The notes under the pieces are model-generated. The model saw nothing but the letters and a program-made list of their open reading frames with translations, did not search any database and was not told where the DNA came from. From Akkermansiaceae bacterium (GTDB lineage Bacteria > Verrucomicrobiota > Verrucomicrobiia > Verrucomicrobiales > Akkermansiaceae): DNA of 64,000 nucleotides. Of the stretch, positions 7,652-46,864 are shown one piece after another. The translations under genes were made by a program, and so were the position numbers. The stretch spans positions 1 through 64,000 of the forward strand of contig JABDRB010000002.1 of assembly GCA_013041925.1 (NCBI GenBank). The letters run 5' to 3'. Within the stretch, counting starts at the first letter, position 1, and each line of letters starts with the position of its first letter.

Positions 7652-9004
7652 ATGTGGAAAGGACGATTCGCCAAAGCTACCGCCGATCTTGTTCAACAGT
7701 ACGGAGAATCCATCTCCTATGACTGGCGATTATACAAACATGATGTCGCAGGCTCCATCGCCCACGCCCGTGCCCAGGTAAAGGCCGGACTCCTCAACAA
7801 CGACGAGTTTGCCTCCATCGAAAAAGGACTCCGTGAAGTCGAACAGGAAATCGACGCCGGATCGTTTGATTTCTCCATCGAACTCGAGGACATCCACATG
7901 AACATCGAGTCAGCCTTGACCGAGAAAATTGGTGCGCCGGGCGCGAAGCTTCACACCGCACGGTCGCGCAACGATCAGGTCGCCACCGACACCCGCTTAT
8001 ACTGTCGGGAGGAAATCGACACCCTGACCACTCACCTCACCGAACTCAAAAAGGCACTCCTTGAACAGGCGTCTACCTATGCCGACGCCGTCATCCCCGG
8101 TTACACCCACCTCCAACGTGGCCAACCAGTCACCGTTGGCCACCACCTCCTGGCTTATGTCGAAATGATCGACCGCGATACGTCGCGGCTCGCTGACTGC
8201 CGGAAGCGCGTCAACGTCTCCCCGCTCGGGTCTGGAGCACTCGCCGGCTCTACCATCAACCTCGACCGCCAACAAATTGCCGAGGAATTAGGCTTCGACC
8301 GCGTCACCACCAATTCGATGGACGCCATTTCTGACCGCGACTACATCGCCGAATTTCTTTTTGACATCGCCCTCGTCGGAACCCATCTGTCACGTCTTTC
8401 CGAGGATCTCATCCTTTGGTGTAGCTCCGAGTTTGGTTTCGCCACCCTTTCTGACGCTCACACCACCGGTTCTTCGCTGATGCCCCAGAAAAAAAACCCT
8501 GACGTCTGCGAGCTCACCCGCGGAAAAACGGGTCGACTCTACGGTAACCTCGTTGCCCTACTCACTGCCGCTAAAGGGCTACCCCTCACCTACAACCGCG
8601 ATCTGCAAGAGGACAAAGAGCCGCTGTTCGACTCCATCGATACCCTCAAACTTGCCCTCAAGGTAAATACGGAAATGATTGCCGATATGACGATCAACGT
8701 CGACACCTGTCTCGCCGCCGCCTCCGACCCGCTTCTGTTAGCCACTGATCTTGCCGACTACTTGGTCAAAAAGGATGTCCCGTTCCGTCAAGCCCACGAA
8801 CTCGTCGGGCAAGCTGTCGCCGTCAGCGTGCAAACAAGCACCCCACTCGACCAACTCGACCTCACTCAAATTTCCGATCACTACGGAGCCGATACCAAGG
8901 AGGTCTTCCACCTCCAGACAGCCCTCGCCGCCCGTACCAACCCTGGCGCACCCAGCATCGAAAACGTACGTGCCGAGGTCGCACGCTGGCAAGAAAGCCT
9001 CTAA
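7652..9004 (+). CDS. argH: Argininosuccinate lyase
   Basis: A protein of 450 residues, full length for the family. It cleaves argininosuccinate to arginine and fumarate, the last step of arginine biosynthesis, in the cytoplasm. Signatures seen are MWKGRF at the N-terminus, the HTARSRNDQV loop, the TH in GYTHLQRGQPV, and the fumarase/lyase signature GSSLMPQKKNPD carrying the flexible catalytic serine loop. A G-rich stretch lies upstream but too far from the ATG to be a good ribosome site. No other arg gene is adjacent. sodN follows after 46 bp on the same strand. Confidence 0.97.
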   Translation: MWKGRFAKATADLVQQYGESISYDWRLYKHDVAGSIAHARAQVKAGLLNNDEFASIEKGLREVEQEIDAGSFDFSIELEDIHMNIESALTEKIGAPGAKLHTARSRNDQVATDTRLYCREEIDTLTTHLTELKKALLEQASTYADAVIPGYTHLQRGQPVTVGHHLLAYVEMIDRDTSRLADCRKRVNVSPLGSGALAGSTINLDRQQIAEELGFDRVTTNSMDAISDRDYIAEFLFDIALVGTHLSRLSEDLILWCSSEFGFATLSDAHTTGSSLMPQKKNPDVCELTRGKTGRLYGNLVALLTAAKGLPLTYNRDLQEDKEPLFDSIDTLKLALKVNTEMIADMTINVDTCLAAASDPLLLATDLADYLVKKDVPFRQAHELVGQAVAVSVQTSTPLDQLDLTQISDHYGADTKEVFHLQTALAARTNPGAPSIENVRAEVARWQESL

Positions 9005-9050: not shown

Positions 9051-9506
9051 ATGAAAAGCTATCTCATCATTGCCGTCGCTTCCGTCCTCACCCTTTCCGC
9101 AGCACCTGGGTTGAGGGCCCACTGCCAAGTCCCCTGTGGTATTTACTCAGACGATACGGTCCTCAAAGACCTCCACACCCATCAAGCGACCATCAGCAAG
9201 GCCATGGAACAAATCGCCAAGCTCTCAAAAAAACCCGGCGAAAATGCCAACCAGCTCACCCGTTGGGTCGTTAACAAGGAGGAGCACGCCACCAAGATCC
9301 AGCAGACAATGACCCAGTATTTTCTCGCCCAACGCGTCAAACTCACGGAAGCCGATTCCAATAACAAGGCCTACATCAAAAAAATCTCCCTGATCCATCA
9401 AATCATCGTGCACGCCATGAAGTGCAAACAAAGTACCGACCTCGACGCTGCCGCTAAACTGCATCAGTCCATCGCCCTTTTTACGAAGGCGTATCAAACC
9501 AAGTAG
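9051..9506 (+). CDS. sodN: Nickel superoxide dismutase with Sec signal peptide
   Basis: A protein of 151 residues. A signal peptide (MKSYLIIAVASVLTLSAAPG) ends in LRA, directly followed by the nickel-hook motif HCQVPCGIY. That matches the NiSOD signature H-C-x-x-P-C-G-x-Y, where His1, Cys2 and Cys6 of the mature enzyme bind Ni. Cleavage by signal peptidase after Ala would leave exactly His1 at the N-terminus. The rest (about 128 residues) fits the four-helix NiSOD domain. The enzyme dismutates superoxide to peroxide and oxygen. In many bacteria the hook is exposed by a dedicated protease, SodX, and none is seen here. The predicted location is the periplasm. Confidence 0.88.
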   Translation: MKSYLIIAVASVLTLSAAPGLRAHCQVPCGIYSDDTVLKDLHTHQATISKAMEQIAKLSKKPGENANQLTRWVVNKEEHATKIQQTMTQYFLAQRVKLTEADSNNKAYIKKISLIHQIIVHAMKCKQSTDLDAAAKLHQSIALFTKAYQTK

Positions 9507-9557: not shown

Positions 9558-10178
9558 TCACTCGTTCACAGTTTGGCAGATCTCACAGGTCATGCCATCA
9601 CACCCGCGAGCCGAACAATATTCGCGACCGTAGAAAATAATCTGCAAATGCAGTTTATTCCATTTTTCCCTCGGAAATAATCGCTTCAGATAGCGCTCGG
9701 TCTCAACCACATTCTTCCCTGGACTCAATCGCCACCTCTTAGCGAGTCGATGGATGTGCGTATCCACGGGGAATGCTGGCACGCCAAATGCCTGCGCCAT
9801 CACGACCGAGGCCGTTTTATGACCAACCCCTGGTAACGCCTCCAATGCCTCAAAATCAGCCGGCACCTGCCCGCCGTGCTGATCCAGCAGAATCTGCGAG
9901 AGCCCAGCAATCGCTTGCGACTTCCTCGGCGATAACCCACAGGGGCGGATGATCGCCTTGATCTCCTCCACCGACACCCGCACCATTGCCTCAGGCGTCG
10001 ATGCCAACGCAAACAACTCAGGCGTCACCTGATTCACACGGACATCCGTACACTGTGCCGATAATAACACCGCCAACAACAAGGTGTAAGCATCCGTGTG
10101 GTCCAACGGAATCGGCGTCTCAGGATAAAGTTCCTCTAGACGCCCCAAAATATATTCGACTCGCTCTGACTTGGTCAC
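9558..10178 (-). CDS. nth: Endonuclease III (base-excision repair glycosylase)
   Basis: A protein of 206 residues starting with GTG. It removes oxidised pyrimidines from DNA and nicks the strand. It has the helix-hairpin-helix LPGVGHKTA with the catalytic lysine, and VDTHIHRLAKR with the catalytic aspartate. The C-terminal cysteines are spaced C-x4-C-x4-C-x2-C (CSARGCDGMTCEIC) rather than the E. coli C-x6-C-x2-C-x5-C, so binding of the [4Fe-4S] cluster is plausible but not certain. It converges with sodN 51 bp away. Confidence 0.93.
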   Translation of the reverse strand: MTKSERVEYILGRLEELYPETPIPLDHTDAYTLLLAVLLSAQCTDVRVNQVTPELFALASTPEAMVRVSVEEIKAIIRPCGLSPRKSQAIAGLSQILLDQHGGQVPADFEALEALPGVGHKTASVVMAQAFGVPAFPVDTHIHRLAKRWRLSPGKNVVETERYLKRLFPREKWNKLHLQIIFYGREYCSARGCDGMTCEICQTVNE

Positions 10179-10215: not shown

Positions 10216-10261
10216 TCAAAAACCACCCGATCACATTGGGTCGATCAAACAAAGATCGGGT
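10216..10261 (-). terminator. Candidate intrinsic terminator of the 3D-domain lipoprotein gene
   Basis: An inverted repeat, ACCCGATC at 10225-10232 and GATCGGGT at 10254-10261, overlaps the end of the stop codon. On the minus strand it is followed by GGTTTTTGA. The 21-nt loop is long, so the call is moderate. Confidence 0.45.
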
Positions 10262-10941
10262 TAAAGCGCCCCGTTTTTCTTGATGTCTTTACTCGCCACA
10301 CGGCTGTTGAGCTTGCGCTTGCAACCGACATACATCTTGTTGCAGTGATGGTAACGGGTGCGCCCCTTGAGCATACGTGCGCTGCGCTCATAAGACCCCC
10401 ACTGAATCACCGTGATTTCTGTTTTTCGGGTTCCCCACTTGCGCATCAATCGTAGTGACGGCTTAAAAATATCAATCGTATTCGTTCCTGCCAATGCCGA
10501 TCCGTAATCGTCAACCACATAGATGTGCGGTTGTCCTTTTACACGAAACTTGGTGCCCAAGGGATACACCGACCAATCAGCAGCCGCACTACGCACACTC
10601 CCGTATTTTAAAATACCACCCGCTGCATTCATCCGTCCGGGAGCACCCACCTCATTCTCCATGTGTGAGTAGGAGGTGGTGCGCACATATCGGGTGCGGT
10701 CCGAGTGACTCTTATAAGTAGGCATCCCATGTTTATCCTTCGACATACTGCGTGACTTGCTAATGGTCTTCGATGATGCAGGATCAGGCAGAATAGAACG
10801 AGATGACGATGCGTTTTTTACAATAGCCGCAGATCGTAACTTGCTGAGCGTTGGTGCGCCCATCGTCAAACTCGAGCTGCAGCTACTCAGAGAAAACAAG
10901 CTCAGACATCCGAGACCAATAAGAAGGGGTTGAATAATCAT
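10261..10941 (-). CDS. 3D-domain (double-psi beta-barrel) lipoprotein
   Basis: A protein of 226 residues. A lipobox ends at Cys21 (SLFSLSSC), so it is a predicted lipoprotein. The C-terminal half contains the 3D motif, named for three aspartates (VVDDYG, then NTIDIF), preceded by YPLGTKFRV, as in MltA C-terminal and Rpf/YabE-type 3D domains. This family is linked to peptidoglycan cleavage or cell-wall remodelling. The middle is basic and Ser-rich with no clear domain. It is likely an outer-membrane or periplasmic wall-active protein. No neighbour helps to narrow the role. Confidence 0.75.
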   Translation of the reverse strand: MIIQPLLIGLGCLSLFSLSSCSSSLTMGAPTLSKLRSAAIVKNASSSRSILPDPASSKTISKSRSMSKDKHGMPTYKSHSDRTRYVRTTSYSHMENEVGAPGRMNAAGGILKYGSVRSAAADWSVYPLGTKFRVKGQPHIYVVDDYGSALAGTNTIDIFKPSLRLMRKWGTRKTEITVIQWGSYERSARMLKGRTRYHHCNKMYVGCKRKLNSRVASKDIKKNGAL

Positions 10942-45993: not shown

Positions 45994-46111
45994 ACTACGC
46001 ATCTCGGAGAGTATCAGGTCGAAATACGCCGAGAATAAACCGCACGGATCACTATTCCCTTTCCCCTATGCCGAATTTCGCTTATTTCCCGTGCAGCGAA
46101 TTTTTTCATTC

Positions 46112-46864
46112 ATGCGCGTATTTTCCATACTTTTCCGGAAGGAGTTCAAAAACTACTTTCTCACGCCCTTTGGCTGGGTCATTCTCGCCCTGATCTTACT
46201 GATGCAGGGGTTATCCATGACCACGGCCATGGAAAAGATGAAGGACGCCCCGCTCTCTGAAAACTTTGTTTTTGTCTCACTGCACTCGCCGAATTTCTGG
46301 TTTTATTTTTTGTTTACCTTCCCGCTGCTGACGATGCGCCTGTTTGCTGAGGAAGAAAAATCAGGCACCTTGGAAACGCTGATGACCGCGCCAGTCAGTA
46401 GCCTTCAAGTCGTTCTCTCCAAGTACTTCGCCGCACTCAGCTTCTACGCACTGCTCTGGTTGCCCATCCTTCTTCATTTAAAAATCTTTACCGCTATCAC
46501 GGGCAACCCACCACCCTACGAGGTCGGTCACCTGATTGGCACCTATACCATCCTCATGCTGATCGGCTGCTTTTTCCTCGCCATCGGCTGCCTCGCCTCA
46601 ACTCTGAGCTCCAATCAAATCGTGGCTGGCATCATCACCATCGCCATCCTCGTCATGCTCTTTTTCCTAGGATTTGTCCCCTACATCACCGGTGAAGGAT
46701 TTCAGGCCGTATCACTTTTCCACTATGTCTCGATCCAAGAACATCTAGCCAACTTCGCCCGAGGCATCATCGATACACGCGCCATCGTCTACTACCTCAG
46801 CATGGCTGCCTTTGTCCTTTTCCTCACCCATGTCACCCTCGATTTCCGCCGTTGGAAATCATGA
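46112..46864 (+). CDS. GldF-like ABC transporter permease
   Basis: 250 residues from the ATG at 46112; the open frame extends upstream but not convincingly. The N-terminus MRVFSILFRKEFKNYFLTPFGW and the EEEKSGTLETLMTAPVSSLQ block are diagnostic of ABC-2/Gld permeases. About six membrane helices. A GldG-like protein gene follows after 36 bp. No ABC ATPase gene is adjacent, so the ATPase must be encoded elsewhere. Confidence 0.9.
   Translation: MRVFSILFRKEFKNYFLTPFGWVILALILLMQGLSMTTAMEKMKDAPLSENFVFVSLHSPNFWFYFLFTFPLLTMRLFAEEEKSGTLETLMTAPVSSLQVVLSKYFAALSFYALLWLPILLHLKIFTAITGNPPPYEVGHLIGTYTILMLIGCFFLAIGCLASTLSSNQIVAGIITIAILVMLFFLGFVPYITGEGFQAVSLFHYVSIQEHLANFARGIIDTRAIVYYLSMAAFVLFLTHVTLDFRRWKS

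Follow-up and report, generated by a model that had tools for sequence, protein, structure and literature searches.

Nickel superoxide dismutase (NiSOD) is the classic example of an enzyme whose metal-binding N-terminus has to be uncovered by a protease of its own. Within the N-terminal hook, His1, Cys2 and Cys6 are presumably the nickel ligands, and in the Streptomyces enzyme the axial histidine is supported by Glu17 and Arg47. The Streptomyces NiSOD (SodN; PDB 1q0d, 1t6u) combines a hook of the form HCxxPCGxY with a four-helix bundle and is processed by SodX, which the accessible part of PMC3919588 gives as the cognate peptidase of SodN. In cyanobacteria NiSOD is cytoplasmic according to the available sections of PMC8346466, where ten sodN strains without sodX are counted among 55 and where verrucomicrobia and planctomycetes appear among the listed sodN carriers. 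An N-terminal partner other than a pro-peptide precedes NiSOD in the algal ubiquitin-NiSOD fusions presented in the excerpted text of PMC6332867. By analogy, removal of ubiquitin may free the histidine in these proteins, although they are eukaryotic and carry a ubiquitin domain, unlike the export signal discussed below. A signal peptide followed by an N-terminal histidine, as found here, is present in the NiSOD of the planctomycete Roseiconus lacunae (WP_230780104.1). In the portion of PMC12537917 that was available this signal peptide served as a search query which returned many NiSODs, exported metal-carrying proteins with an N-terminal histidine are described, and that portion holds no study of NiSOD maturation. 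Because a NiSOD signal peptide was used as a query there, an exported NiSOD is already implicit in print. Apart from this implicit use, export-coupled maturation of NiSOD was not recognised as described in our literature search, which was not exhaustive.

The window analysed here, a stretch of 64,000 nucleotides from an Akkermansiaceae bacterium, encodes a protein of 151 amino acids on the forward strand at 9051-9506 (ATG start), which reads MKSYLIIAVASVLTLSAAPGLRA and then HCQVPCGIYSDD. The sequence-only reading had called it a nickel SOD, and this identity is confirmed by the match to Pfam Sod_Ni (PF09055; E 6.8e-30, 104.7 bits, cut-off 25) together with the hook HCQVPCGIY (His1, Cys2, Cys6, Tyr9; 9120-9146, forward strand). 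The mature enzyme of 128 residues is assigned to 9120-9506 (forward strand, stop codon included) on the basis of the Sod_Ni match and a four-helix model. Phmmer with the window protein gave no relative of solved structure at E 0.001. A profile of 16 relatives had the Streptomyces NiSOD as its top match, with an E of 0.012, which is weak; the same search returned 13 distinct sequences up to E 1, namely six NiSODs and seven unrelated proteins. Profile-profile comparison with three SodX-type or pro-peptide NiSODs gave a probability of 98 and an E of 1.7e-13. The AlphaFold2 model, computed from a three-sequence input, has four helices and an unresolved hook (mean pLDDT 81.1 for the best and 59-81 across the five models). 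Its PDB ranks 1-10 were all NiSOD chains at TM scores of 0.55-0.64, with no E-value below 0.001. On the sodN equivalog (NCBIfam TIGR02753, curated cut-off 90) the window protein scored 36.9 bits and the NiSOD of Ilyobacter polytropus 31.9 bits, whereas the pro-peptide NiSODs of Nonomuraea and Novosphingobium reached 152 and 156 bits. All members of the A1 set (n = 16) matched this model with E-values of at most 0.001 (the lowest being 4.3e-13), the mature part of its first member at 29.8 bits. By profile, fold and hook, the protein is thus a member of the NiSOD superfamily. The Pfam model of the SopA central domain also scores weakly (22.9 bits, cut-off 27), most likely through a chance helical similarity.

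Compared with the Streptomyces enzyme, the window NiSOD carries a predicted Sec-type signal peptide with a hydrophobic core instead of a short pro-peptide. The leader (9051-9119, forward strand, 23 residues) has one N-terminal positive charge, a best 10-residue Kyte-Doolittle mean of 2.71, Leu at -3 and Ala at -1, and it ends with LRA directly before the hook. The same measure gave a core of 2.21 for the Roseiconus lacunae leader. With these values the window leader fits Sec-exported signal peptidase I substrates by a hand-made rule whose thresholds are uncalibrated: a core of at least 1.6, a net charge of at least 1, a small residue at -1 and an allowed residue at -3. Assignment of the signal peptide draws on these rule features and on the boundary conserved in relatives. 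NiSOD was present in 52 of 97 genomes of a family sample and in 62 of 387 genomes of a phylum sample. The family and phylum matches plus two further loci (L032 and L033) gave 109 loci that were read; L032, from an Akkermansiaceae metagenome-assembled genome, is a relative with 84% identity. After two contig-end fragments (L116, L117) were dropped, 107 complete NiSODs were left, of which 106 are distinct because L033 and L024 are identical. The start codons of these proteins were chosen by rule (the ATG nearest to 23 residues), so that leader lengths are approximate.

The signal-peptide rule was passed by 104 of the 107 complete NiSODs. Two of the failures had a charge of 0 with the chosen start codon (L027, L063) and one had Pro at -1 (L115). 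At position -1 Ala predominates (99 sequences), followed by Gly (6), Ser (1) and Pro (1), and a (-3,-1)-compatible site exactly before His1 is kept in 105 of the 106 distinct sequences, the next commonest offset being found in 39. Judged from its conservation across relatives, the leader pattern is more than chance, and the layout appears to be a feature of the sampled phylum, not peculiar to one genome. The earlier observation that the hook begins exactly at the predicted signal-peptidase cut (LRA, then HCQVPCG) therefore holds well beyond the window, with the site kept in all but one of the distinct sequences. It is this conservation on which the boundary before His1 rests, because a site-seeking version of the rule passed 12 of 48 long ORFs of the window, several of them falsely, with N-termini of Rossmann type by eye, and chose an 18-residue leader for the window NiSOD (site, then Pro). 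Two other modes of export were considered and ruled out: Tat export, since an RR pair within the first 12 residues occurs in none of the 107 leaders, and lipoprotein processing, since the residue after the cut is His, not Cys.

A NiSOD with the same layout was found outside the phylum, on a plasmid of Ilyobacter polytropus (Fusobacteriota; WP_013389192.1), where the leader MNKLVLILSLLILIPNYLFA directly precedes HCEVPCGIY. A search confined to this plasmid gave no match to sodX. In a tree of 110 rows, the Ilyobacter protein, although from a different phylum, falls among the 107 exported rows, which stand apart from three pro-peptide or SodX-type NiSODs with a support of 99/99 on long branches. 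The tree was rooted at the midpoint and has just three outgroup rows, because the plasmid collection yielded only Ilyobacter, Novosphingobium and Nonomuraea.

We propose, with a probability of roughly 0.8, that the window encodes a NiSOD that is exported to the periplasm, owes its N-terminus to signal peptidase I and acquires its nickel once exported. The Sec pathway would move the unfolded precursor across the inner membrane, where the general signal peptidase I would cut after Ala23 and make His1 the N-terminus. The four-helix bundle would then fold, the HCQVPCG hook would take up nickel in the periplasm, and the enzyme would remove superoxide there, with a leaderless Fe/Mn SOD working in the cytoplasm. 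A single signal peptidase I gene is present in the source genome (PF10502, 87.4 bits, with both matching stretches in one 431-residue open frame).

The likeliest of the alternatives, which we nevertheless regard as unlikely, is that the protein, once exported and cleaved before His1, acts as a carrier or sensor of nickel or copper rather than as a SOD. It draws on positions that differ from the Streptomyces enzyme. The position of Arg47 is occupied by His in 105 of 106 distinct NiSODs, in the window protein by His56 (codon 9285-9287, forward strand; aligned with Arg47 by profile-profile alignment), position 17 is variable, and position 9 of the hook is Phe in 15 sequences. The exported metal-carrying proteins with N-terminal His that appear in the available portion of PMC12537917 point in the same direction, as do His-rich C-termini, with at least four His in the last 25 residues of 24 of the 107 relatives. 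On the other hand, His1, Cys2, Pro5 and Cys6 are invariant in all 106 distinct sequences and Tyr9 is kept in 91, so that the full hook of a NiSOD is retained. In addition, no NiSOD genome of the two samples also encodes the Cu/Zn enzyme SodC, as would be expected if both do the same task. Phe9 (for instance in L031, L059, L064, L077, L084, L087 and L108) is the same change as in the Streptomyces Y9F mutant known from PDB titles. The His-rich tails (L007, L044, L047, L064, L095, L103 and L114 are examples) lie in some cases within the last helix and are absent from the window protein; they might hold metal.

The relation to SodC deserves further comment. Periplasmic Cu/Zn SOD belongs to a family unrelated to NiSOD, and SodC and an exported NiSOD probably share the task of removing superoxide in the envelope. 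No Cu/Zn SOD was found in the source genome. SodC was detected in 6 of 97 family genomes, one of these being a partial match with an internal stop, and in 16 of 387 phylum genomes, three SodC genomes being common to both samples. Among the 97 family and the 387 phylum genomes not one had NiSOD and SodC together (Fisher p 0.008 and 0.086, respectively, uncorrected for relatedness). The N-termini of SodC, viewed for 5 of 10 loci, were signal-peptide-like by eye. This pattern, which is an association only, fits an exported NiSOD as an alternative envelope SOD. Within genus g7, NiSOD occurs in three genomes (G030, G048, G093) and SodC in four others (G019, G039, G064, G085), never both. The single Fe/Mn SOD of the source genome begins with MAHELPDLG and is leaderless. 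Its C-terminal tail, CCGGGCGCG, is rich in cysteine, and more cysteines precede the DVWEH motif (L118; genome G000, contig C19, ~46095-46415, minus strand).

Outside the cytoplasm, the hook cysteines of an exported NiSOD could be prone to oxidation. The window protein has three mature cysteines, and among the 107 NiSODs two are found in 40, three in 42, four in 24 and five in one. An odd number, which would leave the third cysteine unpaired, is a mild oddity for a protein predicted to be exported. A search for the DSBA family (PF01323) gave no match in the source genome, compared with matches in 8 of 14 control genomes. The hook thiols may therefore meet less oxidation, as far as PF01323, the one family covered by the search, is concerned.

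A second alternative, which we consider very unlikely, would leave the NiSOD in the cytoplasm, where a diverged relative of SodX, encoded at some other locus, would remove the leader, which would be a pro-peptide of unusual hydrophobicity. In the NiSODs of Nonomuraea and Novosphingobium the pro-peptide likewise ends in Ala before His, and because these two share it, the Ala of the window leader is no proof of cleavage by signal peptidase. The discriminating feature appears to be the hydrophobic core, not the Ala, with 2.71 in the window NiSOD against 1.44 and 0.43 in the two pro-peptide proteins, and a positive n-region with a hydrophobic core in 104 of 107 leaders argues against a pro-peptide. 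The protease itself was sought elsewhere in the genome with the sodX model (TIGR02754), and no match at E 0.001 was obtained in the 33 contigs of the source assembly, whose completeness of 98.07% leaves room for an undetected sodX. Neither a sodX match nor a short pro-peptide without a hydrophobic core, the two marks of the SodX-processed cytoplasmic class, was thus found for the window protein, which differs in both respects from the Streptomyces enzyme.

In the wider samples, none of the 97 family genomes and none of the 387 phylum genomes had a sodX match above the curated cut-off of 63.25 bits. This cut-off is too strict, because an S26-type ORF beside the Novosphingobium sodN, likely a SodX that the cut-off misses, scores 44 bits. 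On the plasmid in question (NZ_CP141945.1; L134, ~3.2-4.8 kb of the locus) sodN is flanked by this ORF and by another that by eye resembles a nickel permease of the HupE/UreJ type, and near the Nonomuraea NiSOD a motif search gave no S26-type ORF within 3 kb. Weak S26-type matches below the cut-off occur in 14 of 97 family genomes and in 145 of 387 phylum genomes, which could speak for a diverged protease. They are also seen in four of the 14 control genomes, E. coli among them, are no commoner in genomes with NiSOD (23 of 62, versus 145 of 387 overall; p 1.0), reach 31.9 bits in the best match listed for a NiSOD genome (G355) and are taken for ordinary signal peptidases. Furthermore, no ORF longer than 90 amino acids with an S26 motif lies near NiSOD in the 109 loci (within ~1.5 kb, where the contig allowed). 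That export processing exposes His1 without SodX, as suggested from the sequence at the outset, is hence the best-supported reading, given a genome with no sodX match and one signal peptidase I gene.

Least likely of all is that the leader of an exported NiSOD is retained as an anchor or cleaved elsewhere, His1 then not being N-terminal and the nickel site not formed, since of the compatible sites in the window protein (offsets -7, -6 and -3 in the leader and +10 in the mature part, besides that before His1) just the one before His1 is kept among relatives, with Ala at -1 in 99 of 107, and since invariant hook ligands would be odd if the N-terminus were unused.

The probably exported NiSOD of the window represents a variant form of a known enzyme and apparently matures by a different route, partly foreshadowed in print. 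We speculate, at about even odds, that it belongs to a phylum-wide, SodX-free branch of NiSODs in the cell envelope, in which signal peptidase I suffices to produce the N-terminus, nickel enters once the protein has been exported, the site is supported by a second shell that has His56 instead of Arg47, and NiSOD replaces Cu/Zn SOD as the periplasmic SOD. If so, bacteria would have a second route to the NiSOD hook, by way of ordinary secretion, and a nickel-thiolate enzyme would reside in the cell envelope. The delivery of nickel to a hook with two cysteines outside the cytoplasm would then become a testable question. The finding also matters for annotation, because the sodN equivalog stays below its cut-off on the window and Ilyobacter NiSODs.

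The surroundings of the gene were compared across the loci. Upstream lies argininosuccinate lyase (argH; 7652-9004, forward strand; Pfam Lyase_1 E 1.4e-81 and ASL_C2), found on the same side in 9 loci, and downstream an nth-like HhH-GPD DNA repair protein (9558-10178, reverse strand; Pfam HhH-GPD E 9.8e-23), found in 8 loci. Together with one uncharacterised upstream family (8 loci) these are the largest neighbour families, and a nickel operon is unsupported, as no family obtained by clustering the neighbours within ~1.5 kb extends beyond 9 loci. A group of 58 loci from an earlier clustering was set aside, being taken for single-linkage of antisense ORFs. Phage carriage was likewise rejected: the phage collection gave no match, and of 24 pattern-matching stretches in viral_contigs none was confirmed. 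A promoter scan at the NiSOD gene found none, and two sites resembling terminators were seen within the gene, on the opposite strand. Further downstream, a 3D-domain protein (10261-10941, reverse strand; E 7.1e-9) has an N-terminus that looks lipobox-like by eye, and members of its family are found downstream of sodN in 7 loci.
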